This document shows, piece after piece, positions 2,343-40,121 of a stretch of 64,000 bases of DNA. The stretch covers positions 1 through 64,000 of the forward strand of contig CAIOZY010000025.1 in the NCBI GenBank assembly GCA_903862935.1, written 5' to 3'. The position numbers were made by a program, and so were the translations under genes. A model generated the notes under the pieces. That model saw only the letters and a program-made list of their open reading frames with translations, was not told the DNA's origin and did no database searches. Numbering within the stretch: position 1 is the first letter of the stretch; every line of letters starts with the position of its first letter. This DNA is from an uncultured Opitutaceae bacterium (lineage in GTDB: Bacteria > Verrucomicrobiota > Verrucomicrobiia > Opitutales > Opitutaceae).

Positions 2343-3515
2343 TCACCGGCTTTGGAACTCCAGCCAGGCGTCGCGAAACCACTCGATAACCGGCCAGGAT
2401 GTCTTGGTGGACGTATTGCAGCTCGCCGAGAACATAAAACGATCCCGATAAGGTTCTAGGCGGAGGAACAGGTCGTCAACGTACCGGAACACCTGGTCGC
2501 GGGTCTTAAAACCCTCCGTCTCGATCGGGCTGATCCCCCCCGTGAGGATAAGCCTCCCGGCACCAAGCTGCATCGCCTCCTCGAGCTGCAGGTCGCCCAG
2601 TGGCGGATACGCCACGCCTTCCAGCCCGTCGACACCCAGCGACGCAATCAGCGGAAGCACGGCCCGTTGGTGGCCGCAGGCGTGGATCAAGAAGACGGCC
2701 CCGGAGGCTCTGCAGAGTGCTGCGGCACGCTCATAGAAACTCGCTGAGCAGCGCTCAAGATACCGCGGCGAATGGAAGGCCGAGTCCAGGTTGTCCATGG
2801 CAATCATCGCGACCACTCCGCCGTCCAACATCTGACGCACGAGATCGAGCTGGGCCTCCTCGTGGGCTCGCATCCAGGCCATGCAACGTTCGGGATAGTC
2901 CTCCAGCAGGAATACCGCGCTGTCCGCGCCAGCGGCCAAGTGCAACAGCTTGAGGGGGCTGAATAACTCGCCCGCATTGATGATTCCATCAACCCCAACC
3001 TGGTTCTGCCAGCTGTCGAACAGCGCGCGGTTAAAGCGCCAACGGCGGCTGGTGACCAGCGCCTCAAAGGCGTCGGCCTCCCGGTCGAAGTCCTCGAGCA
3101 GGAATTTCTCCTGCACTAGCGTAGACCCCGCGAAGACGAAGCGCAGCTGTTCAGTCAACGTTCCGGCCCGCGTGCGATAGGTCCTCTTCGTTACGATATC
3201 CTGGCCCTCTGTGTGGCGCACCACCTCGAGCTCGATCCCGTCGAGGACCTCCTCCGCCAAGCCACCGAACCAATACTGAGTGGGATCGCAGTACAGGTTA
3301 CGGCTAAACACGTCGAGCCCGAGATGGCGGATAAGATCCAATTGCGACTCGCACTGGCTGAGTTCGGCTGGAAGCAGGCCGTGGTTCCGATGGTGGGTGA
3401 ACCACTGCCAGTAATTCGGCGCATAAACGAACCGGTCCGGTCGGGCTCGCTGCAGCACGCGGGTCACAAGCTCACGACGAGAATTCGGGACGTCAGTTCG
3501 AGCAAAACCATTCAT
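2343..3515 (-). CDS. UroD-superfamily methyltransferase-like protein (copy 1, intact zinc triad)
   Basis: A 390-aa protein of the uroporphyrinogen-decarboxylase fold family, which also contains the corrinoid:thiol methyltransferases MtaA, MtbA and CmuA. Near the C-terminal half it has HAC (H278, C280) followed by the GGISP segment and C366 in SASCNTST. A His-x-Cys...Cys set is the zinc site that activates the methyl-accepting thiol in MtaA-type enzymes. Of the five UroD proteins here, only this one shows the full triad. A strong ribosome-binding site (AAGGA, 5 nt from ATG) fixes the start. It lies between uxaC and the MR/SDR pair on the same strand. True heme decarboxylase function is unlikely because of divergence and context; the substrate is unknown. 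Confidence 0.75.
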   Translation of the reverse strand: MNGFARTDVPNSRRELVTRVLQRARPDRFVYAPNYWQWFTHHRNHGLLPAELSQCESQLDLIRHLGLDVFSRNLYCDPTQYWFGGLAEEVLDGIELEVVRHTEGQDIVTKRTYRTRAGTLTEQLRFVFAGSTLVQEKFLLEDFDREADAFEALVTSRRWRFNRALFDSWQNQVGVDGIINAGELFSPLKLLHLAAGADSAVFLLEDYPERCMAWMRAHEEAQLDLVRQMLDGGVVAMIAMDNLDSAFHSPRYLERCSASFYERAAALCRASGAVFLIHACGHQRAVLPLIASLGVDGLEGVAYPPLGDLQLEEAMQLGAGRLILTGGISPIETEGFKTRDQVFRYVDDLFLRLEPYRDRFMFSASCNTSTKTSWPVIEWFRDAWLEFQSR

Positions 3516-3596: not shown

Positions 3597-5015
3597 TCAT
3601 GCATATTCCCGATCCATCTCCAGACGGAAGTAGTCCCGGGCGTTTGCAAAGCAGATGTTCTTCACCATGGCCCCGACAAGTTGAAAGTCGGCCGGGATCT
3701 CGCCGCGGGCCATGTCGCCGCCGACCAGGTTGCATAATACCCTCCTGAAGTACTCGTGGCGCGGATAGGACAGGAAGCTTCGGGAGTCAGTCAACATCCC
3801 GACGAAGCGGCTCAGGAGGCCCAAGTTTGAGAGCGCATTAAGCTGCCACTCCATGGCCTCCTTCTGATCGAGGAACCACCAGCCGCTACCAAACTGAATC
3901 TTGCCGGGAATTTTCCCATCCTGAAAGTTGCCGATCATACCAGCGAAGGCATAGTTGTCGGATGGGTTGAGATTGTAGATGATCGTCCTCGGCAGCTCAT
4001 CGCTGGCGTCCAGCGCATCGAGATAGCGAGAAAGTTCTCGGGTGTGCGAGAAGTCCCCAATTGAGTCGAAGCCGATTGCCGGCCCTAGCGATCTAAATAT
4101 ACGGGAGTTGCAGTTGCGCAGTGCGCCCAGGTGTAGCTGCTTGGTCCAGCCGCGAGCCGCATCCCATCGACCAAATTCAAGCATCAGGTAGGATCCAAAA
4201 CTGGTCTGGTCTTCGACGGACGGGGTCCGGCCGGTCCGGACGGCGTCATACACCGCCTTCGCCTGGGCAGGCGTGCACGGCTCGGCCAGCGCGACTTCGA
4301 GCCCGTGGTCCGAGACGCGGCACCCGGCCGCGTGAAAGTCATTGTGGCGCTTCCTTAAGGCTCCCAGAAAGTCATCAAAGGATCTGATGGCCGAGCCGGC
4401 CGCGGCGGCGAGCCTTTCGACCCAAGCGTTGAACACCGCTGGCTCGGCGATCTCCAGGGCCTTGTCCGGTCGAAAGGCGGGATAAACCCGCGTCTTTAAG
4501 CCTGACGCCCGGATCTTGGCGTGGAGATCCAGGCTGTCAGCTGGATCGTCCGTTGTGCAAATAGCTGCCACCCGAAAACGTGCGAAGATGTCCCACACCC
4601 GCAGAGATGACAGCCGCTCGTTGGCCTCGCGCCACACTGCAGCAGCGCTCTTGGGATCGAGAAGCACGTCGATTCCAAAGTACCTCTTAAGCTCGAGGTG
4701 TGTCCAATGGTAGAGCGGGTTGCGCAGGGTATGGGGCACCGTCGCGGCATAGGCTTCGAATTTTTCCCACGGCGATGCATCTCCGGTGCAAAGGCGCTCG
4801 GGCACGCCGTTCGCTCGCATGACACGCCACTTGTAGTGGTCGCCGGCCAGCCAGATCTCCGCAAGGTCAGCAAATCGGTGATTTTCCGCGATCTGTGCCA
4901 CCGGGATATGGCAGTGATAGTCCAAGATAGGCTCCGCCTCCGCAAAACTGTGAAACAGCTCCCGAGCTTGCGGGGTGTTCAGTAGAAAATCGTTGGTAAT
5001 TAATGGAGAGGGCAT
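3597..5015 (-). CDS. uxaC: Glucuronate/galacturonate isomerase (uronate isomerase)
   Basis: A 472-aa uronate isomerase of the amidohydrolase superfamily, which converts D-glucuronate to D-fructuronate and D-galacturonate to D-tagaturonate in the cytoplasm. The HxH metal motif is at H34/H36 (YHCHIP), and the length and the characteristic segments WLAGDHYKWRVMRANG and SDNYAFAGMIGNFQDG match UxaC. It is divergent from the LacI gene with only about 60 bp between the preferred starts. The 12-bp operator-like element lies in that gap (5064-5075), so control by the neighbouring regulator is likely. With UxaE downstream in the region, both uronates can converge on fructuronate. Confidence 0.95.
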   Translation of the reverse strand: MPSPLITNDFLLNTPQARELFHSFAEAEPILDYHCHIPVAQIAENHRFADLAEIWLAGDHYKWRVMRANGVPERLCTGDASPWEKFEAYAATVPHTLRNPLYHWTHLELKRYFGIDVLLDPKSAAAVWREANERLSSLRVWDIFARFRVAAICTTDDPADSLDLHAKIRASGLKTRVYPAFRPDKALEIAEPAVFNAWVERLAAAAGSAIRSFDDFLGALRKRHNDFHAAGCRVSDHGLEVALAEPCTPAQAKAVYDAVRTGRTPSVEDQTSFGSYLMLEFGRWDAARGWTKQLHLGALRNCNSRIFRSLGPAIGFDSIGDFSHTRELSRYLDALDASDELPRTIIYNLNPSDNYAFAGMIGNFQDGKIPGKIQFGSGWWFLDQKEAMEWQLNALSNLGLLSRFVGMLTDSRSFLSYPRHEYFRRVLCNLVGGDMARGEIPADFQLVGAMVKNICFANARDYFRLEMDREYA

Positions 5016-13637: not shown

Positions 13638-14381
13638 TCAGGCTGCCCCGACTAGCGCCAGGGCTTGATCTACAGCCTCGCCCGCATTGGCCGCGTATCC
13701 GTCGGCCCCGATCTCATCCGCGAACCGCTGGCTGATCGGCGCACCCCCAACCATGATCTTGACCGCCGGGCCTTCGCTTGCGCGGATCGCGCGGACCGCC
13801 TTTATCATCGCCGGCATCGTGGTAGTCAGAAGGCCCGACAAGCCCACGATTCTCGGCCTGTGCTCCTTGATCGCCGTGATGAACTTGGCCGGGGGCACAT
13901 TTGTGCCGAGGTCGATCACCTTGAAGTTCGCACCCTTCCACATGATCGTAACCAGGTCCTTGCCGATGTCGTGCAAGTCACCCTGAACAGTGCCGATAAT
14001 CGCCGTGTATTTTGGCCTGATACCAGCCGCCACAAGGCGCGGTTCCAGGATTGCCATCGCCTCCTTCATGGCTCGGGCCGAGACGAGCATCTCAGGCACG
14101 AAGATCAGACTCCTCTTAAACTTCTCGCCGACGGCCGCCATCGCCGGGACCAGCGCCTGATTGACGATCTCTACGGGGTCGATGCCATCAGCAAGGGCGC
14201 GCTGCACGAACACCTTGCCATCCTTACTCTTGCCGGCTTCGACAGCGTGGGAAAGCTGCTCGAGAATAGGCACTAAAGAACGGCGATTACTGCGACCCGC
14301 CTCATGCGCCGGCGCCTCGGATATCCTAGACGGTGATGGAGATAGATAGGTCGCCGGACGGGCAGTTGATAAAACCGACAT
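13638..14381 (-). CDS. Corrinoid (B12)-binding methyltransferase protein
   Basis: A 247-aa MtaC/MtbC/MetH-type corrinoid protein. A helical cap domain (about residues 35-120, with FVPEMLVSARAM) precedes the Rossmann-like B12 domain. The B12 signature is complete: DLHDIG with the lower-ligand His at 137, then the SxL segment LSGLL, then GGAPIS. Such proteins carry the methyl group between a substrate-specific methyltransferase and an acceptor enzyme. It starts 23 bp after UroD copy 3 ends, the typical pairing of a methyltransferase with its corrinoid partner. No reactivase (RACE/RamA-type ferredoxin) is seen in the window. About 30 N-terminal residues before the cap are low-complexity. Confidence 0.9.
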   Translation of the reverse strand: MSVLSTARPATYLSPSPSRISEAPAHEAGRSNRRSLVPILEQLSHAVEAGKSKDGKVFVQRALADGIDPVEIVNQALVPAMAAVGEKFKRSLIFVPEMLVSARAMKEAMAILEPRLVAAGIRPKYTAIIGTVQGDLHDIGKDLVTIMWKGANFKVIDLGTNVPPAKFITAIKEHRPRIVGLSGLLTTTMPAMIKAVRAIRASEGPAVKIMVGGAPISQRFADEIGADGYAANAGEAVDQALALVGAA

Positions 14382-14404
14382 TGGCGTCAGAGTCGCGCAC
14401 CGAC

Positions 14405-15388
14405 TCAGGTGGAGTATCCCGTGTTCAACTTCTTGAGCTCGTCCACCATCGCTAGCACGTTCGCTGGAATGGCGTAGTCCGGGATACTGTTGGCGCTTGA
14501 GATCATGTAACCGCCGCCGGGCGCCCCGTCCTTCATGCATCGTCGCACCTCGTTGCGGATGTCCTCGGTAGAGCCACGCGACAAGGTATCGACACTCACA
14601 TTGCCCACGAGGCACACTTTGCTCCCGTACTGTTGCTTCATCTCCTTTAGGGACATGCATTCTGGTTCAATCGGATGCAGGCCATTCATTCCCAGTGTGA
14701 GCAGGTCCTTGAGAACCGGACGAAGATCCCCGTCACTGTGATAAACCCACGGCAGCGGTATGGAGTGAGCCGCTTCCATCACGCACGGCAGAAGTAACTC
14801 GCGAAACATCGCGGGGGACATCATGGAGCCGGAATGGTAAGCGATATCGTCGGCGCATAGGATCACATCCACGCCGCGTCGGCTCATCTCCTGCATGGCG
14901 ACCGAGCACCAGCGAGAGTAGCGCTTCAAGATATGCACGATCAGGTCCGGATCGTCGACTGATGCGAGGGAGAAGCCCTCCAGGTCCATGCTCATGAGCA
15001 TGGCAGACAGACCCAATCGAGTTCTCCCCAGAATGGCGCGCTTCCCCTTGTTTCTTGCAGCCATCTCCTCCAATTCAACGTACAGAGCAGGATCGGTTGG
15101 GTCCTTGAGCGCATCGAGGGCCTCCAGATCATCTCGGGTATGAAGCTTCCCTCCAGTTTGGTAGGTACGCCCGTCCGGAAGCTTCTCCTCGTGCACGCAA
15201 AGGGGCGGAAGCATGGAAAAAACGATCACGTCGAGGCCCAGTTGTTCCGCAACATGGATGCGGACGGAGGCCAATTTCTCGCCAAAAAGCGCAGTTAGAA
15301 CAGGCCTGTCGATATGGGTCTCGAAAAACGGGACCCTATCGGGCTTGCCGAGCTTGAGTGCGCATAAGACGCGTTCTTTTGATGTCAT
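14405..15388 (-). CDS. UroD-superfamily methyltransferase-like protein (copy 3), paired with the corrinoid protein
   Basis: A 327-aa UroD-family protein beginning MTSKERVLCALKLGKPDRVP, the standard family N-terminus, which decides for ATG 15388 over 15406. The zinc region reads WVYHSDGDLRPVL: the His is kept but the Cys is Asp, and the late Cys is replaced (MISSANS). It lies immediately upstream of the corrinoid protein gene in the same direction and is the best candidate for the partner methyltransferase that demethylates the substrate. What is methylated is unknown; a methoxylated sugar acid or other methoxy compound is inferred from the surrounding uronate genes. Confidence 0.75.
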   Translation of the reverse strand: MTSKERVLCALKLGKPDRVPFFETHIDRPVLTALFGEKLASVRIHVAEQLGLDVIVFSMLPPLCVHEEKLPDGRTYQTGGKLHTRDDLEALDALKDPTDPALYVELEEMAARNKGKRAILGRTRLGLSAMLMSMDLEGFSLASVDDPDLIVHILKRYSRWCSVAMQEMSRRGVDVILCADDIAYHSGSMMSPAMFRELLLPCVMEAAHSIPLPWVYHSDGDLRPVLKDLLTLGMNGLHPIEPECMSLKEMKQQYGSKVCLVGNVSVDTLSRGSTEDIRNEVRRCMKDGAPGGGYMISSANSIPDYAIPANVLAMVDELKKLNTGYST

Positions 15389-15491
15389 AAATTCACTTTC
15401 GGGCAAGGCCCAGCCATTCTAGCCCGGCATTCTGCAGCCGGGCTAGGCAGGCTGGCCTCAGGGCTCCTGCTGGGCCGTGCTTAATCGCCGA

Positions 15492-21146: not shown

Positions 21147-22034
21147 TTACTTGCGGACCTCGACCTTGGCCAGCTTCTCGTAGAACTGAATGAGCCCGCC
21201 GTGATCGTCCTTGCCTTTGCCATCCACCTTGAGCGCCTGCATGAACTCCAGCACTAGGCTCGAAAGGGGCATTGGCACGCCCACTGAGTGTCCCGTCTCA
21301 AGCGCATTGAGCAGATCTTTGATATGAAGCTCCATGCGAAAGCCGGGTTTGAAGTTGCCCTTCAGGATTAGCGGGACCTTTGCGTCCAAGACCGTGCTTC
21401 CCGCAAGCCCACCTCTGATCGCCTGATAGACACGCTCAGGGTCAACGCCCGCCTTCGTTGCGAGTACCAATGCCTCGGCGACAGCCGCGATATTGAGCGC
21501 TACAATGATTTGGTTGGCGAGCTTGGTGATGTTGCCGCTGCCGATGTCGCCCACATGAGTCACCGAAGATCCCATTGCGGAGAGGATGGGCTTAACCTCC
21601 TCAAACGTCGCGCTTGGTCCACCCACCATAATTGCGAGGGTCCCGCTGATCGCCTTGGGCTCGCCGCCACTCACCGGCGCATCCAGCATTGGCACCTTCA
21701 TCGCAGAGAGCTTCTTCGCCACCTCTTGGCTCATCAGCGGCGAAATCGAACTCATGTCCACAACAATACTGCCGGCGCGGAGGCCCTCGATGACACCGTT
21801 CTCTCCCAAGATCACCTGCTTAACCTCCGGAGAATTGGGTAGCATCGTGATGACGATATCGCTTCTTGAGGCCAGGTCCTTTGCAGTTGGAGCCGAAACA
21901 GCACCCACTGAAACGAGTTCGGCGACTGCTGCCGGAACAATGTCGCAGACCACCAGCTGATAGCCCGCCTTAATAAGATTCTTGGCCATGGGTTTCCCCA
22001 TTACGCCTAAGCCGATGAAACCAATTTTCTTCAT
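21147..22034 (-). CDS. garR: 2-hydroxy-3-oxopropionate (tartronate semialdehyde) reductase-like beta-hydroxyacid dehydrogenase
   Basis: A 295-aa beta-hydroxyacid dehydrogenase. The Rossmann motif GFIGLGVMGKPMAKNL starts at residue 4; the substrate loop DAPVSGGEPKAISGTL and the catalytic Lys in GSGNITKLANQ are intact. The sequence fits GarR/GlxR, which reduces tartronate semialdehyde to glycerate with NAD(P)H in the cytosol; a related 3-hydroxyisobutyrate-type substrate cannot be excluded. GGAG lies 8 nt before ATG 22034. It is downstream of a transaldolase-family gene and within reach of the hyi gene, consistent with C3 handling after aldol cleavage of sugar acids. Confidence 0.82.
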   Translation of the reverse strand: MKKIGFIGLGVMGKPMAKNLIKAGYQLVVCDIVPAAVAELVSVGAVSAPTAKDLASRSDIVITMLPNSPEVKQVILGENGVIEGLRAGSIVVDMSSISPLMSQEVAKKLSAMKVPMLDAPVSGGEPKAISGTLAIMVGGPSATFEEVKPILSAMGSSVTHVGDIGSGNITKLANQIIVALNIAAVAEALVLATKAGVDPERVYQAIRGGLAGSTVLDAKVPLILKGNFKPGFRMELHIKDLLNALETGHSVGVPMPLSSLVLEFMQALKVDGKGKDDHGGLIQFYEKLAKVEVRK

Positions 22035-22174: not shown

Positions 22175-23233
22175 TTACCGGAGCATTCGCTCTCTAATGA
22201 GAGCCAACAGCTCATTGTACCCCCCGATAAACTGCTTGAGCGTGTGGGCAGTAGGCCCGAACGAAGCAAATTCGTCGGGAGCGAGGCCTTGGGGATCATA
22301 GGCTCGCCGAAAATCTGGGAAATTGTCTTCGAGCATCGCGATTATGTCCGCACGCACGGGTTCTTCCATGCGGGGCCTTACCTCGATCTTCGAGTTATTG
22401 AACCGTTTCCACCAGGAATAGGGGATTGTCAGGTTCACCTTCCCGCCAATCATCTCCGACCACTGCATGTGGTTCCGATAGGCCGCCGCTAGAAGCACAC
22501 TCCTGAAACCACGCTGTTGGAAGATCTGGTAGGAACGCTTGAACACGGCCACGCCGCCCCATTCCAAACAGCCAGGATCGACGCTGATCTTCTGTGCCTC
22601 CATCACGCGTTTGAGATGGTCATCTAGCCGGCCGACCATAACCGCAACATTGGGCCTCATCGACTGAATCTGTTTGCCCGACTTCTTAGCTCGCTCGAGC
22701 CCACGTTCGATCGCTTCTCCAGCCGCAACCGCCTGGGAAACGCTGAAGCAGACGGTCGGGGTGACCACAATGCCGCGAGCGGTAGCCTCTTCGATCGCCC
22801 CAAGACCAGCTGCCACGACCGGCAGCTTCACCGCGACATTCGGTGCGGTCCGGAACAGCTCCTCGGCCTGGGCCACCATCGCGTCCACATTGCGAAAATT
22901 CTTTGGGTTGACCTGGAGCGACTGGCGCCCGTCACGGCCGCCGCTTCTCTCGTATACCGGCATCAACAGAGCCGCTGCCTTCCTGACAACCTCAGCGGTC
23001 AAGTCCCAGCCCACATCGTCCTCGGTTCCAGTGGCACGGCTCCTAATAAACTGATCGATGACGGGGTTCCATATCTCCGAGGCGCTCTTCGCTACGGTGG
23101 CGACAATTACGGGATTTGACGTAGCCCCAATGGCTCCGTGTGCGAGGGCATCCCGCAACTCATTCGGCTCGCAAGAGTCGTTCCAGAAACCGGTGCCGAA
23201 TTCGGCCGTTAGTTGCATCAGGCTTTTGCTCAT
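22175..23233 (-). CDS. Transaldolase-family protein
   Basis: A 352-aa class I aldolase-fold protein of the transaldolase family. It has an N-terminal GATSNPVIV segment (like the DGxTTNPSL of transaldolases) and the Schiff-base Lys at K136 in NVAVKLPVV, followed by TPTVCFSVSQAVAA. It may act as a transaldolase or a fructose-6-phosphate-aldolase-like enzyme on a sugar-acid product; the substrate is not visible from sequence. AAAAGGA precedes ATG 23233, which settles the start over a longer frame to 23269. It lies between UroD copy 4 and garR on the minus strand, probably co-transcribed. Confidence 0.8.
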   Translation of the reverse strand: MSKSLMQLTAEFGTGFWNDSCEPNELRDALAHGAIGATSNPVIVATVAKSASEIWNPVIDQFIRSRATGTEDDVGWDLTAEVVRKAAALLMPVYERSGGRDGRQSLQVNPKNFRNVDAMVAQAEELFRTAPNVAVKLPVVAAGLGAIEEATARGIVVTPTVCFSVSQAVAAGEAIERGLERAKKSGKQIQSMRPNVAVMVGRLDDHLKRVMEAQKISVDPGCLEWGGVAVFKRSYQIFQQRGFRSVLLAAAYRNHMQWSEMIGGKVNLTIPYSWWKRFNNSKIEVRPRMEEPVRADIIAMLEDNFPDFRRAYDPQGLAPDEFASFGPTAHTLKQFIGGYNELLALIRERMLR

Positions 23234-23314
23234 AAATTTTTCCTTTTGGGCGTTCGCTAGATATGCCATCGGGACTACGCAACCTCCGATAACCCGCGGA
23301 CGGACAACCTGACG

Positions 23315-24826
23315 TCATCCGGAGAGTTGGACCTCCTTGGTCTGATGTTCCGACACCGTTGCGTAGGCAACCGCTTGCCCCTTGGCCGTGGTGAGCCCCA
23401 TCCTGCCGACATACTGCCACCGGATCGTGCAGGTCAGGATGTAATCGCCGGCCGGTAGATGGTCGCACGTGAATTTCCCGTTAGCATCCGCAACAGCTGT
23501 CCGCGTATATGCTTCCAGGCGCGAATCAGGAGCCTCAAGTTGCGCCCGGGGGTACTGGGACATCAGCCGGAACCTCTCCCGCGTGTAAGGCGTAGCAGGC
23601 ACAACGGTGACAACGCAGGCTGCTCCCGGCTTAACCTCACCGCCGGCTGTTTTCATGGACGCAACACCGGTAAGGGTCGCGTTTCCGCCCCGTGCATATC
23701 GCCTATATTCAGCCTCGATAAAAGGTGAGCTGACCTTAGCCGGAGTCGCTGCATTGGCTCCTGACGGCGGCGGTGCTGCTACGCGACCTTCCGTCCTCGC
23801 CAGTAGCTCCGGCAGCGGCATATCCCAGGCCTCGAACACGGCGGCAATGTTCTCAGGAGGGTTGCGAATGCCCCACTGGCATTGTCCGATCACACCTCCG
23901 CGCCCGTCATCGAGCGCTTTTCTCACTCGGGCCACGGCGCGGTAAGCGTCGTCGGGCGAGCCAAACGGAAGAATGCGCTGACGGTCAATCTCACCCCAAA
24001 ACGTGATCCTGCCCTTGAAGCGTTTGGCCAAGTCCTCGATGTCCATGCAGAAGAGCTGCGAATTGATCGCGTCTACGCCAATTTCGATGAACTCCTCGTA
24101 AAGATCCGTGATGTTGCCGTCCGTGTGAAAGAACACCTTTTTTCCGGCCTTGTGCACCATCTCAAAGTACTCCTTGTACAGCGGCTTAAAGACCCTTCGC
24201 CACTGGGCTGGAGAGATCAGCAGGCCTCTCTGCCCAGCCCAATCGTCAGGGAAAAATATTCCATCACAGTCGAGCTTAAGCCAGTACGTGAGTTCTTCGA
24301 CAAAGAATTCGTGCACCATCTTGAGCAACCGGAAGAATTCCGGCGCCTCTTCGCCCAGGTCGATGAATGTGTTTTCCGATCCCCGCAGCCACTGAATCCG
24401 CTCGAACGGACGAATGTCCGCGCACCTCATGAATTTTTTCGGACCCTTTCGGTTCGCTTCGCACATCCGCTGCGCTCCTCCCCAATCTCCTCGCCGAAAG
24501 ATCTCCCAAGGAGGCTGGTAGTGATCCAGCGCTGCCCAATCAGCAAGGGGCGGCTCTCTGACCTCGCCGATCACTCCATCCTCCGCAACGGTCCAGACGC
24601 ATCCCCACGCATCTGTGTAGTTCCCCATAACGCTCGGCTCGCCCCTACAGCGCTCTCCGATCGCCAGGGCTTGCGCGGTGGTAAAGTCGCTTGGAAACCG
24701 ATTTATGAACGCCTCGTATTCCTTGCGGGCATATTGCTGCAGCCACGGCAGATCCCATAGCTCGCGCGGGGCACGGTCGGGCGTACGGAACTCCAAGCAA
24801 CGGCTGACACGCTCATAGCTTGTCAT
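23315..24826 (-). CDS. UroD-superfamily protein (copy 4) fused to a C-terminal carboxypeptidase-regulatory-like domain
   Basis: A 503-aa two-domain protein. Residues 1 to about 360 are UroD-like (start MTSYERVSRCLEFRTPDRAP; metal-site region FFHTDGNITDL; GEIDRQ). After a Pro/Ala linker, the last ~110 residues (from about EAEYRRYA) form a beta-rich domain with AGGEVKPGAACVV, VPATPYTRERF and DHLPAGDYIL, resembling carboxypeptidase-regulatory/prealbumin-like domains normally seen on exported proteins. There is no signal peptide. AAGGG 8 nt before ATG 24826 supports this start; ATG 24862 lacks a ribosome site. The frame is unbroken, so the fusion is encoded, not a sequencing join. It lies upstream of the transaldolase and garR genes. 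The function is unknown. Confidence 0.72.
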   Translation of the reverse strand: MTSYERVSRCLEFRTPDRAPRELWDLPWLQQYARKEYEAFINRFPSDFTTAQALAIGERCRGEPSVMGNYTDAWGCVWTVAEDGVIGEVREPPLADWAALDHYQPPWEIFRRGDWGGAQRMCEANRKGPKKFMRCADIRPFERIQWLRGSENTFIDLGEEAPEFFRLLKMVHEFFVEELTYWLKLDCDGIFFPDDWAGQRGLLISPAQWRRVFKPLYKEYFEMVHKAGKKVFFHTDGNITDLYEEFIEIGVDAINSQLFCMDIEDLAKRFKGRITFWGEIDRQRILPFGSPDDAYRAVARVRKALDDGRGGVIGQCQWGIRNPPENIAAVFEAWDMPLPELLARTEGRVAAPPPSGANAATPAKVSSPFIEAEYRRYARGGNATLTGVASMKTAGGEVKPGAACVVTVVPATPYTRERFRLMSQYPRAQLEAPDSRLEAYTRTAVADANGKFTCDHLPAGDYILTCTIRWQYVGRMGLTTAKGQAVAYATVSEHQTKEVQLSG

Positions 24827-34412: not shown

Positions 34413-34771
34413 AGGCCTCTGTTCAATTGAGACGGCGCGGTCGCGCAGCCCGTGCACGCAAGTATGGCTTGTGGGTGCCTCTACCGCCGCAGACAAACTC
34501 AATGCTCTGCTCGATGACGGCCTGCTTCTCGGCAGCGCCCGGCGCGGCTTTTTCGCGCGTTGACAGTCGGCATGGCGCGCGCCGTGCCCAGCGAGGTTTA
34601 CCTGGGCGTTCCGCTGTCTTACCGGGCGCGCCCAACAGAGTGTAGTCGTCTCAACTCCTCAAAGTCTGGAGAGCAGGCCCTCCCGAGGTTCAAGACCGGC
34701 CAATCGGCTTGAAAGGAAGATCGGGTTCTGGCCAGCTTCATTGGAGCCGTCCAACCCACACGGCGCCTATC
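34413..34771. other. Gap upstream of the TPR protein gene
   Basis: A 359-base stretch. A 70-codon minus-strand frame (34423-34635) has some coding character but no recognisable motif and is not called. No operator or RNA is seen. Confidence 0.35.
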
Positions 34772-37447
34772 ATGCCCGAGCCCGGCCTTGCCGAACACCC
34801 CCCTGCACAGACGACCATTTCCGCTCAAGGGGTGGACTGGATTGACCTGTTAAGCGGACCGATTCTGGCGGTTGGGGCAATCGCAGCCTACAGCCGAACC
34901 CTCTCCGTACCGCTGCTGTTCGATGACGTTGCCACCATAGCCCACAACCGATCCATCCAACATATCACCACCGCGTTGGCGCCAGCGTTTAACACCACCG
35001 CGGGCGGTAGACCTGTCCTGAATCTCTCTCTCGCGATCAATTACGCAGCAAGTGGGACCGAAACGTGGAGCTACCACCTGCTGAACCTGATAATCCACAT
35101 TCTGGCCGGGTTAACCCTGCTGGGTATTCTCCGGCACACGTTTTCCCGATATGCAGCCCCGTCAGCCGCTCTCGCCGCACTGTGCGCCACCTTGATGTGG
35201 ACGCTGCATCCCCTGCAGACCGAATCGGTAACGTACATCATCCAGCGCGCCGAATCCCTCATGGGGCTGTTCTACCTCCTCACGCTGTATTGTTTCATTC
35301 GGGGTGCTGATGCAGGCGGTCGGAACAAAGCAATTTGGGTCATCCTCTCGATTATCTCCTGCCTTTTGGGCATGGCTACCAAGGAGGTTATGGTCTCCGC
35401 ACCGTTGATGGTGCTGCTCTACGATCGCACTTTTCTTGCCGGAAACTTTCGTGACGCGCTGCGTCGCCACAAGGCGGCTTATGCCGGGCTGTGCACGACC
35501 TGGGTAATCCTGCCCTTCCTGGTTTTTTCGACGCACGGCCGCGGAGGGACCTCTGGATTTGGCGTTGGCGTGCCGTGGACACAGTATGCACTGACCCAAT
35601 TTCCGGCGGTCGTGCGCTACTTGAAGCTCGCTCTGTGGCCACACCCTTTGGTCTTCGACTACGGCACCCAGTGGGCGACCGATTCCTGGGCATCCCTGCC
35701 GTCCGCACTGGTTGTGATCGGCCTGATCGCGGCAACCGCGTGGGCTCTCTCGCGCCAAGGCATAGGCATGAAATCCCTCGGTCTGGCAGGAGCCTGGCTT
35801 TTCTCGATCCTCGCCCCGACAAGCCTGATTCCAGGCAATCGGCAGACGGCAGCGGAACACCGGATGTACCTGGCCCTGATTCCCGTGGTTGTGCTGGGGG
35901 TTTCCTTAGTCTTTCGTAAGCTCGGCCGCGCGGCGCTGCCATGCTGCTTTGCCCTGTCAGTAGGGCTGGGCGGGATGACCTTCGTCAGAAATGAGACTTA
36001 CCGCAGTGCCCCGGCCCTATGGTCCGATACGGTGGCCAAGTGCCCTGAAAATGCCTTTGCACATAACAACCTGGGTTGCGAACTGGAGGCGTTGCCGGGG
36101 CGAAGGATGGAGGCCATCGCCCAGTACGAAGAAGCCCTGCGCCTAAGACCGGACGATGCCGAAGAGCATAACAATCTGGGAAGTGCACTCGAGAAGATGC
36201 CCGGCCGGTTCGATGACGCGCTGGTTCAGTTTAATGAGGCGCTGCGACTGAAGCCAGAATTTGCCGAGGCCCACTACAACCTCGCTTGCGCGCTGGAAAC
36301 AGTCCCCAGCCGACGCGATGAGGCAATTGCCCACTTCCGCACATCTCAAGTACTGAAGCCTGATTTCCCCGAGGCGCATACCAACCTCGGCTACGTCTTG
36401 GAACAAATGCCCGGACGGCTGAATGACGCTATCGCCGAGTATGAGGCCGCCTTGAGACTGACACCGGATGACGCCCTGGCGCACTACAACCTAGGAAATG
36501 CCCTGGCAAAGATTCCGGGACGATCTCATGAAGCAATATCCCAGTATCAAGCGGCGCTCCGTCTGAGACCAAATTACACGGAGGCGCGCAATAACCTGGG
36601 AAACACCCTGAGCAACCTGGGTCGGCCCACGGAGGCTATTGCGCAGTATGAGGAGACGCTGCGCCTGAATCCGAAGGATGCCCAGGCACACTACGATCTT
36701 GGTGTCGCCCTGTACGCCAGTGGTCGGAGGAAGGAAGCGATCGGCCAGTATGAGGAGGCTTTGGTCCTGAGACCGGCTTATCCGGAAGCCCATGACAATC
36801 TTGGAATTGCATTGAATGCCGAGGGCCGGCAAGCGGAGGCAATCTCCCATTATGAGGAGGCCCTCCGGTTAGATCCCAGCGATGAGAAGACCCATTATAA
36901 TCTGGCGAACGCGCTAAGCCTTGCCGGTCAGACAATGCAGGCCATCGCCCAGTATGAGGAGGCCCTGAGACTAAGGCCGGACGATGCCGAGGCCCACAAC
37001 AATCTAGGCTACGCACTGGAGAAGACACCCGGGCGCCTGAGCGACGCGATCGCCCATTATGAGGAGGCGCTGCGCCTCAAACCGGACTATGCAGAAGCGC
37101 ATAACAGTCTGGCCTATGCGCTCGAGAAGATGTCCGGACGGTTGGATGAGGCGATTCTCCATTATGAAGAGGCGCTGCGCCTGAAACCGGACTACGCCGA
37201 GGCCCATTTCAATCTTGGAAACGTCATGAGTGTCCGAGGCCGGACGGCGGAGGCAATTGCCCAGTATGAAGCAGCGCTGCGCTTGGCACCGGATGAACCT
37301 GCGATCCATCTGAACCTAGCTCTCGCACTCCTCAAGGTCCCATTCCGGACCGAAGAGGCAATCAGGCACATCGAGGCAATATTGCGTCTCCAGCCCGACA
37401 ACGCCCAGGTGCGGCAGCTCCTCGACAGAGTCCGGGCCTCCCAATAG
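34772..37447 (+). CDS. TMTC-like membrane protein with C-terminal TPR array
   Basis: An 891-aa protein. Residues to about 420 hold roughly ten transmembrane helices with the FDDVATIAHNRSI motif (the acidic pair of GT-C/TMTC-type mannosyltransferases) and LHPLQTESVTYI. The remainder is about 13 tetratricopeptide repeats, many close to the pattern EAIAQYEEALRLRPDDAEAH. It may glycosylate or scaffold exported proteins at the inner membrane. The repeats are also nearly identical at DNA level (e.g. 36,950-37,210), so copy number could vary. ATG 34772 is chosen; a TTG at 34709 would extend it. It has no apparent link to uronate metabolism. Confidence 0.8.
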   Translation: MPEPGLAEHPPAQTTISAQGVDWIDLLSGPILAVGAIAAYSRTLSVPLLFDDVATIAHNRSIQHITTALAPAFNTTAGGRPVLNLSLAINYAASGTETWSYHLLNLIIHILAGLTLLGILRHTFSRYAAPSAALAALCATLMWTLHPLQTESVTYIIQRAESLMGLFYLLTLYCFIRGADAGGRNKAIWVILSIISCLLGMATKEVMVSAPLMVLLYDRTFLAGNFRDALRRHKAAYAGLCTTWVILPFLVFSTHGRGGTSGFGVGVPWTQYALTQFPAVVRYLKLALWPHPLVFDYGTQWATDSWASLPSALVVIGLIAATAWALSRQGIGMKSLGLAGAWLFSILAPTSLIPGNRQTAAEHRMYLALIPVVVLGVSLVFRKLGRAALPCCFALSVGLGGMTFVRNETYRSAPALWSDTVAKCPENAFAHNNLGCELEALPGRRMEAIAQYEEALRLRPDDAEEHNNLGSALEKMPGRFDDALVQFNEALRLKPEFAEAHYNLACALETVPSRRDEAIAHFRTSQVLKPDFPEAHTNLGYVLEQMPGRLNDAIAEYEAALRLTPDDALAHYNLGNALAKIPGRSHEAISQYQAALRLRPNYTEARNNLGNTLSNLGRPTEAIAQYEETLRLNPKDAQAHYDLGVALYASGRRKEAIGQYEEALVLRPAYPEAHDNLGIALNAEGRQAEAISHYEEALRLDPSDEKTHYNLANALSLAGQTMQAIAQYEEALRLRPDDAEAHNNLGYALEKTPGRLSDAIAHYEEALRLKPDYAEAHNSLAYALEKMSGRLDEAILHYEEALRLKPDYAEAHFNLGNVMSVRGRTAEAIAQYEAALRLAPDEPAIHLNLALALLKVPFRTEEAIRHIEAILRLQPDNAQVRQLLDRVRASQ

Positions 37448-39071: not shown

Positions 39072-40121
39072 ATGACCGATTCCCAATGGGATACACTTGT
39101 GGCCGCCGTCCGTGGTGCGCCCGGGCCGCAGATGCCCGTCGCCTTCATAATCGATTCCCCTTGGCTCCCAAATTGGGCGGGTACCAGCATCACCGAGTAT
39201 CTCGCAAGCGAGCACGCGTGGTTTGATGCCAACCGGAAGGTGGTCGAGGCCTTCCCTGAATGCATCTTCCTGCCGGGATTTTGGTCAGAGTTCGGGATGT
39301 GCACTGAACCTTCAGCTTTCGGGGGCAAATGCGTCTTTCCGCCGAACGACTTTCCGTTCATTCAGCCCGTGACGGCGTCACCCGAGGCAGCTGCGGAGTT
39401 GCCTGAGCCAAACCCCGAAACCGACGGCCTATTGCCACTCGTTCTCCATCGCCTGAGATGGGCCCAGCCCCGCATCGAACAATTGGGGCACAAGATCCGC
39501 TTCTCGGTCTCCCGTGGTCCGCTTAACATCGCAACGTTCATCATGGGGACGACCGAGTTCCTTGTGGCGATCAAGACAGACCCGGACCCGATGCACCGCT
39601 TCCTCGGCACCATCACTCGCTTTCTCTGCCGATGGCATCAACTGCAGCGAGATACTTTCCCATCCATAGACGGCATCATGGTGCTCGACGACGTTGTTGG
39701 ATTCATGGGAGAGGACGATTTCCTCGAATTCGGTGCGCCCTACCTGGAGAAGCTCTTCGCCGCGGACGCGGCGGTAAAATTCTTCCACAATGATGCCGCA
39801 TGCCTATCCTCCATCCGCCACTACACTCGCATCGGGATCAACCTCTATAACCCGGGGATTCAACAGCCGATCGCCGAGCTGATGCGCTTGACCTCGGGCC
39901 AGCTCACCCTGCTAGGCGGAATCCCCCCGCGGGAGGTTATGGCGGAGGGCCGGCCGGAGGACGTAGCGGCGACTATCAGCCGCCTGCAGGCGGAAGTCCC
40001 CGACCGCAGGAGATTGATCCTGTCCTGCAGCGGCGGCATGGCACCCAAGGTATCCACGGAAAACCTGAAGGCTGCGCTCGCCAGTAATTCTGTATCATTC
40101 GAGCCAAAACAGGCCTACTAG
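39072..40121 (+). CDS. UroD-superfamily protein (copy 5)
   Basis: A 349-aa UroD-family protein. The metal-site region is KFFHNDAACLSSI, the glycine segment LLGGIPP, and the late Cys is in ILSCSGGM, so the His and late Cys remain while the middle Cys is changed. AAAGGA 7 nt before ATG 39072 fixes the start. It is divergent from MFS 3 across operator copy 4 and convergent with LacI 2. It is expected to share the uronate regulon; its role as methyltransferase or decarboxylase-like enzyme is unproven. Confidence 0.75.
   Translation: MTDSQWDTLVAAVRGAPGPQMPVAFIIDSPWLPNWAGTSITEYLASEHAWFDANRKVVEAFPECIFLPGFWSEFGMCTEPSAFGGKCVFPPNDFPFIQPVTASPEAAAELPEPNPETDGLLPLVLHRLRWAQPRIEQLGHKIRFSVSRGPLNIATFIMGTTEFLVAIKTDPDPMHRFLGTITRFLCRWHQLQRDTFPSIDGIMVLDDVVGFMGEDDFLEFGAPYLEKLFAADAAVKFFHNDAACLSSIRHYTRIGINLYNPGIQQPIAELMRLTSGQLTLLGGIPPREVMAEGRPEDVAATISRLQAEVPDRRRLILSCSGGMAPKVSTENLKAALASNSVSFEPKQAY

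Follow-up and report, generated by a model that had tools for sequence, protein, structure and literature searches.

A UroD-superfamily barrel joined in frame to a PA1324-type lipoprotein domain in one uncultured Opitutaceae genome

A single open reading frame of an uncultured Opitutaceae bacterium joins a UroD-like enzyme barrel to a domain of a kind that is normally exported, which raises the questions of whether the join is real, whether other bacteria share it, and what the added domain might do. The frame lies in a stretch of 64,000 nucleotides, here called the window, at positions 23315–24826. The preliminary description reported one uninterrupted frame there and did not give the strand. 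The open-frame translation bears this out: 503 codons run unbroken on the minus strand, from an ATG at 24826 to a stop codon at 23317–23315, and encode a protein of 503 amino acids. The two peptides quoted earlier, VKPGAACVV and DHLPAGDYIL, are both present in the translation. Translation probably starts at the ATG at 24826, because the majority of UroD relatives align from residue 1, and a stretch AAGGGA is positioned 7 nucleotides upstream of it. Opposite the UroD part, an antisense open frame of 292 amino acids occupies positions 23882–24760 of the plus strand. The evidence points to an ordinary codon-bias shadow, since a cluster of such long frames occurs in 68 of 79 relative loci and its representative, from locus L013, is also antisense to UroD.

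The fused protein can be divided into a UroD-superfamily barrel (residues 1–341, positions 23804–24826), an alanine- and proline-rich linker of about 30 residues (342–370, 23717–23803), and a PA1324-like beta domain (371–503, 23318–23716), all on the minus strand. The extent of the barrel is based on the PF01208 match, the ends of the matches to relatives, the pLDDT of the model, and fold matches in the PDB; that of the linker on its sequence and low pLDDT; and that of the C-terminal domain on sequence, profile, and fold matches. The C-terminal domain is beta-rich, as described before, and its length is about 133 residues rather than the 110 estimated. Structure prediction, which had been proposed as a check, returned a barrel up to roughly residue 350, followed by disorder and then by a C-terminal domain with a PA1324-like fold. 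In the full-length model, block means of pLDDT of 89–99 up to residue 350 indicate a confident barrel, and values below 50 over residues 356–396 a disordered stretch. The C-terminal domain is poorly scored in this model (block means of 45–70), for which the alignment lacked depth in the tail. Modelled separately with AlphaFold2, residues 352–503 have a mean pLDDT of 87.2.

The identification of the N-terminal part as a UroD-like barrel was correct. Residues 149–333 match PF01208 with an E value of 1.5e-15 and 57.5 bits against a cut-off of 23.9, which places the protein in the UroD superfamily. The best PDB matches of the full-length model in Foldseek are the methyltransferase of Methanosarcina mazei (4ay8/4ay7), followed by UroD/HemE structures; structures of PA1324 also match the same model (1xpn with E 1e-7, 3qec with E 1.8e-7). 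The members of the UroD clade are enzymes about 340 residues long that stand alone. Scanning one genome for each species identified 105 UroD relatives, the best 80 of which were retained in 79 loci. The 92 relative frames compared comprise one from each retained locus and 13 from same-family loci, with some genes present twice. The matches of the relatives end at query residues 278–342, and none of the 92 frames extends more than 27 residues beyond its match. For a few rows, that of locus L014 among them, the tblastn ranges reach residue 410, yet the open frames end near residue 335.

In an alignment of 32 rows, the columns of His234-X-Asp236 (24119–24127, minus strand) are invariant, and the alignment together with a motif listing marks Cys316 (23879–23881, minus strand) as nearly invariant in the UroD clade. 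The barrel has Ala197 where all 31 relatives have glycine. It departs from the consensus at 6 of 95 conserved columns, within the range of 0–11 spanned by the 31 relatives, and unusual decay of the barrel is thereby ruled out. The tree of the 32 rows groups the barrel with four rows from Planctomycetota (support 100/97), with an end branch of 0.55 in comparison with 0.11–0.31 for these four sisters, and separates it from the UroD copies that same-family genomes contribute to the tree. Horizontal transfer of the barrel gene is possible, as judged from these sequences. The genome contains 15 matches to the fused protein, itself counted. Further UroD-family genes of the window are located at 2343–3515 (minus strand) and 39072–40121 (plus strand), and the former is positioned between genes for a glucuronate isomerase (3597–5015) and an enolase-superfamily dehydratase (1104–2216). 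Some UroD relatives, for example those of L021 and L024, have genes for an amino-acid-type ABC transporter, a family named by eye, within 5 kb; the ATPase cluster is found in 11 of the 79 loci and the permease and binding-protein clusters in seven each.

The closest solved relative of the added domain is PA1324 of Pseudomonas aeruginosa. The whole C-terminal domain matches it by profile with E values of 1.1e-25 and 3.4e-25, and single-sequence comparison by phmmer gives 1.7e-11 to 1.1e-10 (7.5e-11 and 1.1e-10 in one of the searches), values well outside what chance would produce. In Foldseek, the model of residues 352–503 matches 3qec (E 2.9e-12, TM-score of 0.76 by query length) and 1xpn, which are its sole PDB matches at E 0.001. 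The agreement in both sequence and fold over the whole domain makes the added part a PA1324-like domain. The preliminary description had labelled it carboxypeptidase-regulatory-like. The corresponding Pfam family CarboxypepD_reg (PF13620) is matched below its cut-off of 32.3 bits, with 18.4 bits for the whole protein (E 0.0028) and 22.6 bits for the C-terminal piece (E 1.4e-4); a typical CarboxypepD_reg identity was thus rejected, and "PA1324-type lipoprotein domain" is the more exact name. The ligand of PA1324 itself is only putative in the title of the PDB entry, and carbohydrate binding by PA1324-like lipoproteins is likewise putative.

Relatives of the domain were collected from three sets of genomes, with the source genome of the window counted in each. 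In the family, the domain was found in 12 of 252 genomes. Two of the 11 others (G189 and G243) have weak partial matches to proteins of another kind, and the remaining ones encode PA1324-type proteins in which the domain stands alone or, in three genomes from a single genus, follows an extra region. In related lipoproteins of one genus (L124, L125, and L126), about 150 additional residues separate the lipobox from the PA1324-like domain. Within the window's genus, one genome of the 12 examined, G010, encodes free-standing copies, two in number. The class search gave matches in 37 of 384 genomes at E 0.001, mostly short ones in large proteins that share the common DxxGxF...LPxGxY motif, and five strong further copies, which are free-standing; in the order, 3 of 372 genomes matched at E 1e-10. 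The strong copies from class and order are encoded by frames of 165–231 amino acids. Plasmids of about 50 kb (CP137943.1, CP124671.1, and four of Pseudomonas amygdali/ficuserectae) also encode PA1324-like domains, which are 37–39% identical to the fused domain and are annotated as "hypothetical protein".

The statement that domains of this kind are normally exported agrees with the relatives: a lipobox was recognized by pattern in 11 of 12 single-domain copies, a set whose members are not all independent (L118, L119, and L121 closely resemble one another) and which excludes L151, a full-length match from the order. The twelfth copy reads TAGC by eye. The three two-domain relatives also have a lipobox, and a weaker relative, L145, has a signal-like stretch and no lipobox. 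The fused domain matches PA1324 and the free-standing lipoproteins over its whole sequence and fold, but it differs from them in forming the tail of an enzyme and in lacking both the signal peptide and the lipobox cysteine. The absence of a signal peptide had been noted before and is evident from the hydrophilic N-terminus, in which the highest 19-residue mean of hydropathy within the first 45 residues is −0.51. A lipobox pattern is absent from the entire 503 residues. Aligned with the lipoproteins, the fused copy begins to match where their mature domain begins, at a conserved F/I-x-E-x-[DE] motif shortly after the lipoprotein cysteine. Such a start, past the cysteine, is the pattern left by a fusion that discards the export signal.

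The pairing, which the preliminary description called unfamiliar, was not found elsewhere in the genomes examined. The fused protein has matches in 36 of 141 genomes of the relatives set at E 0.001, in 55 of 384 genomes of the class at E 1e-15, and in 29 of 387 genomes of the phylum at E 1e-60; the window's genome is counted in each, the genome sets overlap, and at most 10, 4, and 3 candidates, respectively, were scored per genome. Among the matches listed in these searches, that of the window alone spans both parts. The other listed rows that continue beyond roughly residue 346 are interrupted by one or more stop codons, save three domain-only matches in the relatives search, and some of the distant UroD matches are within stop-to-stop frames of great length. 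Elsewhere in the family, class, and order searches, none of the full-length domain copies found was fused to UroD. Residues 336–503, compared at E 1 with the frames of the UroD-relative loci and their flanks, matched only the window's copies and three added free-standing proteins. Plasmid records contain the pieces separately (three of nine records have UroD and six the domain), viral contigs have no match to either part, and no paper in the literature searched was recognizable by title as dealing with the pairing of UroD and a PA1324-like domain. Examining relatives for the same architecture, as had been suggested, therefore shows barrel relatives without the C-terminal part: the fusion is a singleton in the sets searched and not a conserved architecture, an outcome that the preliminary description had named as counting against it. 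Since the join is seen in this one genome, it probably represents a peculiarity of a single lineage.

A join present in one genome only could be an artefact, in which two genes were brought together in assembly or a sequence error erased a stop codon and a signal peptide. The source genome is a draft of 62 contigs with a completeness of 95.55 and a contamination of 1.78, in which a singleton cannot prove its own join, and the UroD relatives examined lack the tail. However, the two parts meet in frame at a disordered linker, and GC3 is similar in both halves (barrel 0.69–0.70, domain 0.65), compared with 0.53 for the 30-residue linker and 0.62–0.70 for seven neighbouring genes. Inspection by eye of the three minus-strand frames around the join revealed no remains of a signal peptide, and at E 10 the domain occurs only once in the genome. 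An artefact is thus unlikely. It is also very improbable that the two parts are made separately, with the domain translated from an internal start. In-frame ATG codons do occur at residues 336 and 391, but the product from residue 336 would lack a hydrophobic signal (linker hydropathy at most 0.1) and that from residue 391 would begin inside the domain; a separately exported domain made from such a start was rejected on these grounds. Both halves are complete and are homologous to the UroD and PA1324-type families. Because both keep most of their conserved residues and the composition does not break at the join, the frame is most likely a real, lineage-specific gene fusion. The long end branch of the barrel, its Ala197, and the departures of the domain from nearly invariant columns count on the other side.

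If the fusion is real, a UroD-superfamily gene would have been extended at its 3′ end, in frame, by the mature part of a gene for a PA1324-type lipoprotein, whose signal peptide and lipobox cysteine would have been lost in the process. The product would then remain in the cytoplasm, and the barrel would work in a sugar-acid catabolic setting.

The function of the barrel was considered from its relatives and its genomic surroundings. The UroD superfamily includes O-demethylases and haloalkane dehalogenases, not all of which depend on zinc (PMC13222342). The fused protein shares superfamily and barrel with HemE; it is nevertheless absent from the genome's six matches to TIGR01464, and the genome's own HemE is a different gene, on contig C53 (373.6 bits against a cut-off of 302.95), which excludes HemE identity. 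The barrel fold is common to the corrinoid methyltransferases (MtaA/CmuA, MtvB, OdmB, VdmB, MtoB, and CdmB), to which the Foldseek best matches belong. The fused barrel also has weak matches to the MtaA/CmuA models, and corrinoid-type domains occur in the same genome, which contains one RACo-type activator of corrinoid proteins and five B12-binding_2 stretches. One of these is in a corrinoid protein encoded in the window at 13638–14660 (minus strand). This frame overlaps a UroD/MtaA-like gene at 14405–15406 (minus strand) by 256 bases, and no Pfam family matches its first 130 or so residues; so long an overlap suggests a true start of the corrinoid protein further in.

The fused protein differs from the MtaA/CmuA group in its extra C-terminal domain, in NCBIfam scores far below the cut-offs (39.4 against 244, 30.1 against 235.4, 29.3 against 400, and 16 against 600 bits), and in having His234-X-Asp236 where zinc methyltransferases have His-X-Cys. 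These scores and the aspartate, together with the lack of any UroD among PDB sequences in a search with the UroD-clade profile, even at E 10, were counted against a methyltransferase. Corrinoid and sugar-acid genes nearby suggest one. The chances are evenly balanced that the barrel, which is not HemE, acts as a corrinoid-linked methyltransferase or has a related activity of the UroD type. The literature searched contained nothing on a UroD corrinoid methyltransferase in Verrucomicrobia.

Downstream of the fused gene on the minus strand are genes for a transaldolase-family protein (22175–23269, 45 bases past the fused stop codon, with a possible start at 23236) and a 2-hydroxy-3-oxopropionate (tartronate semialdehyde) reductase that scores above its NCBIfam cut-off (21147–22031). 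The window also encodes glucuronate isomerase, an altronate/galactarate-type dehydratase, a tagaturonate epimerase family protein, and hydroxypyruvate isomerase. From this setting we infer a role in handling methylated sugar acids. A conserved operon was rejected: when the seven neighbours were compared with the frames of UroD-relative loci, weak SDR and isomerase matches appeared in L023 and L054 only, and the transaldolase, reductase, and MFS genes had no match at E 1e-8. No gene for a PA1324-like domain was found near the UroD relatives at E 1. Elsewhere in the window, a protein of 912 amino acids (34709–37447, plus strand) has a PMT_2-type glycosyltransferase region just above cut-off and many TPR repeats.

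The tethered beta domain would be a flexible appendage, which might keep a partner protein or a carbohydrate ligand close to the active site; alternatively, it might be no more than tolerated. A slowly drifting appendage without effect on the enzyme is a serious contender, although we rate it slightly short of an even prospect. The pair is not conserved in the genomes searched, and the fused domain departs from nearly invariant columns more often than any of the 11 other rows aligned (3 of 15, the lipobox cysteine among them, compared with 0–2 in the others) and has a long branch that is unplaced in the tree, which makes relaxed constraint possible. At a looser threshold of 80%, its departures (8 of 25 columns) are level with those of L143 (8 of 26). 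Against a merely tolerated tail, the domain is complete, retains 12 of the 15 nearly invariant columns, and has a confident predicted fold. Ligand binding by the tethered domain is a guess. A more specific proposal appears doubtful: the domain, exported in its own family and now cytoplasmic, would hold a methylated sugar acid or a corrinoid protein at a corrinoid-linked UroD-type active site, much as a carbohydrate-binding module might on an intracellular demethylase.

Both parts of the fused protein are of known kinds, and the pair was not found in the other genomes examined. The pairing is mildly surprising because the tail derives from a family of exported lipoproteins, and since the pair is not conserved, there is no sign yet of an important function. 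Should the appended domain bind substrate, it would serve a UroD-type enzyme as a natural tether and would offer a handle on PA1324-like domains, whose ligand is so far putative. If it is neutral, the protein would show cleanly how a lipoprotein domain can lose its signal and persist as the tail of an enzyme.
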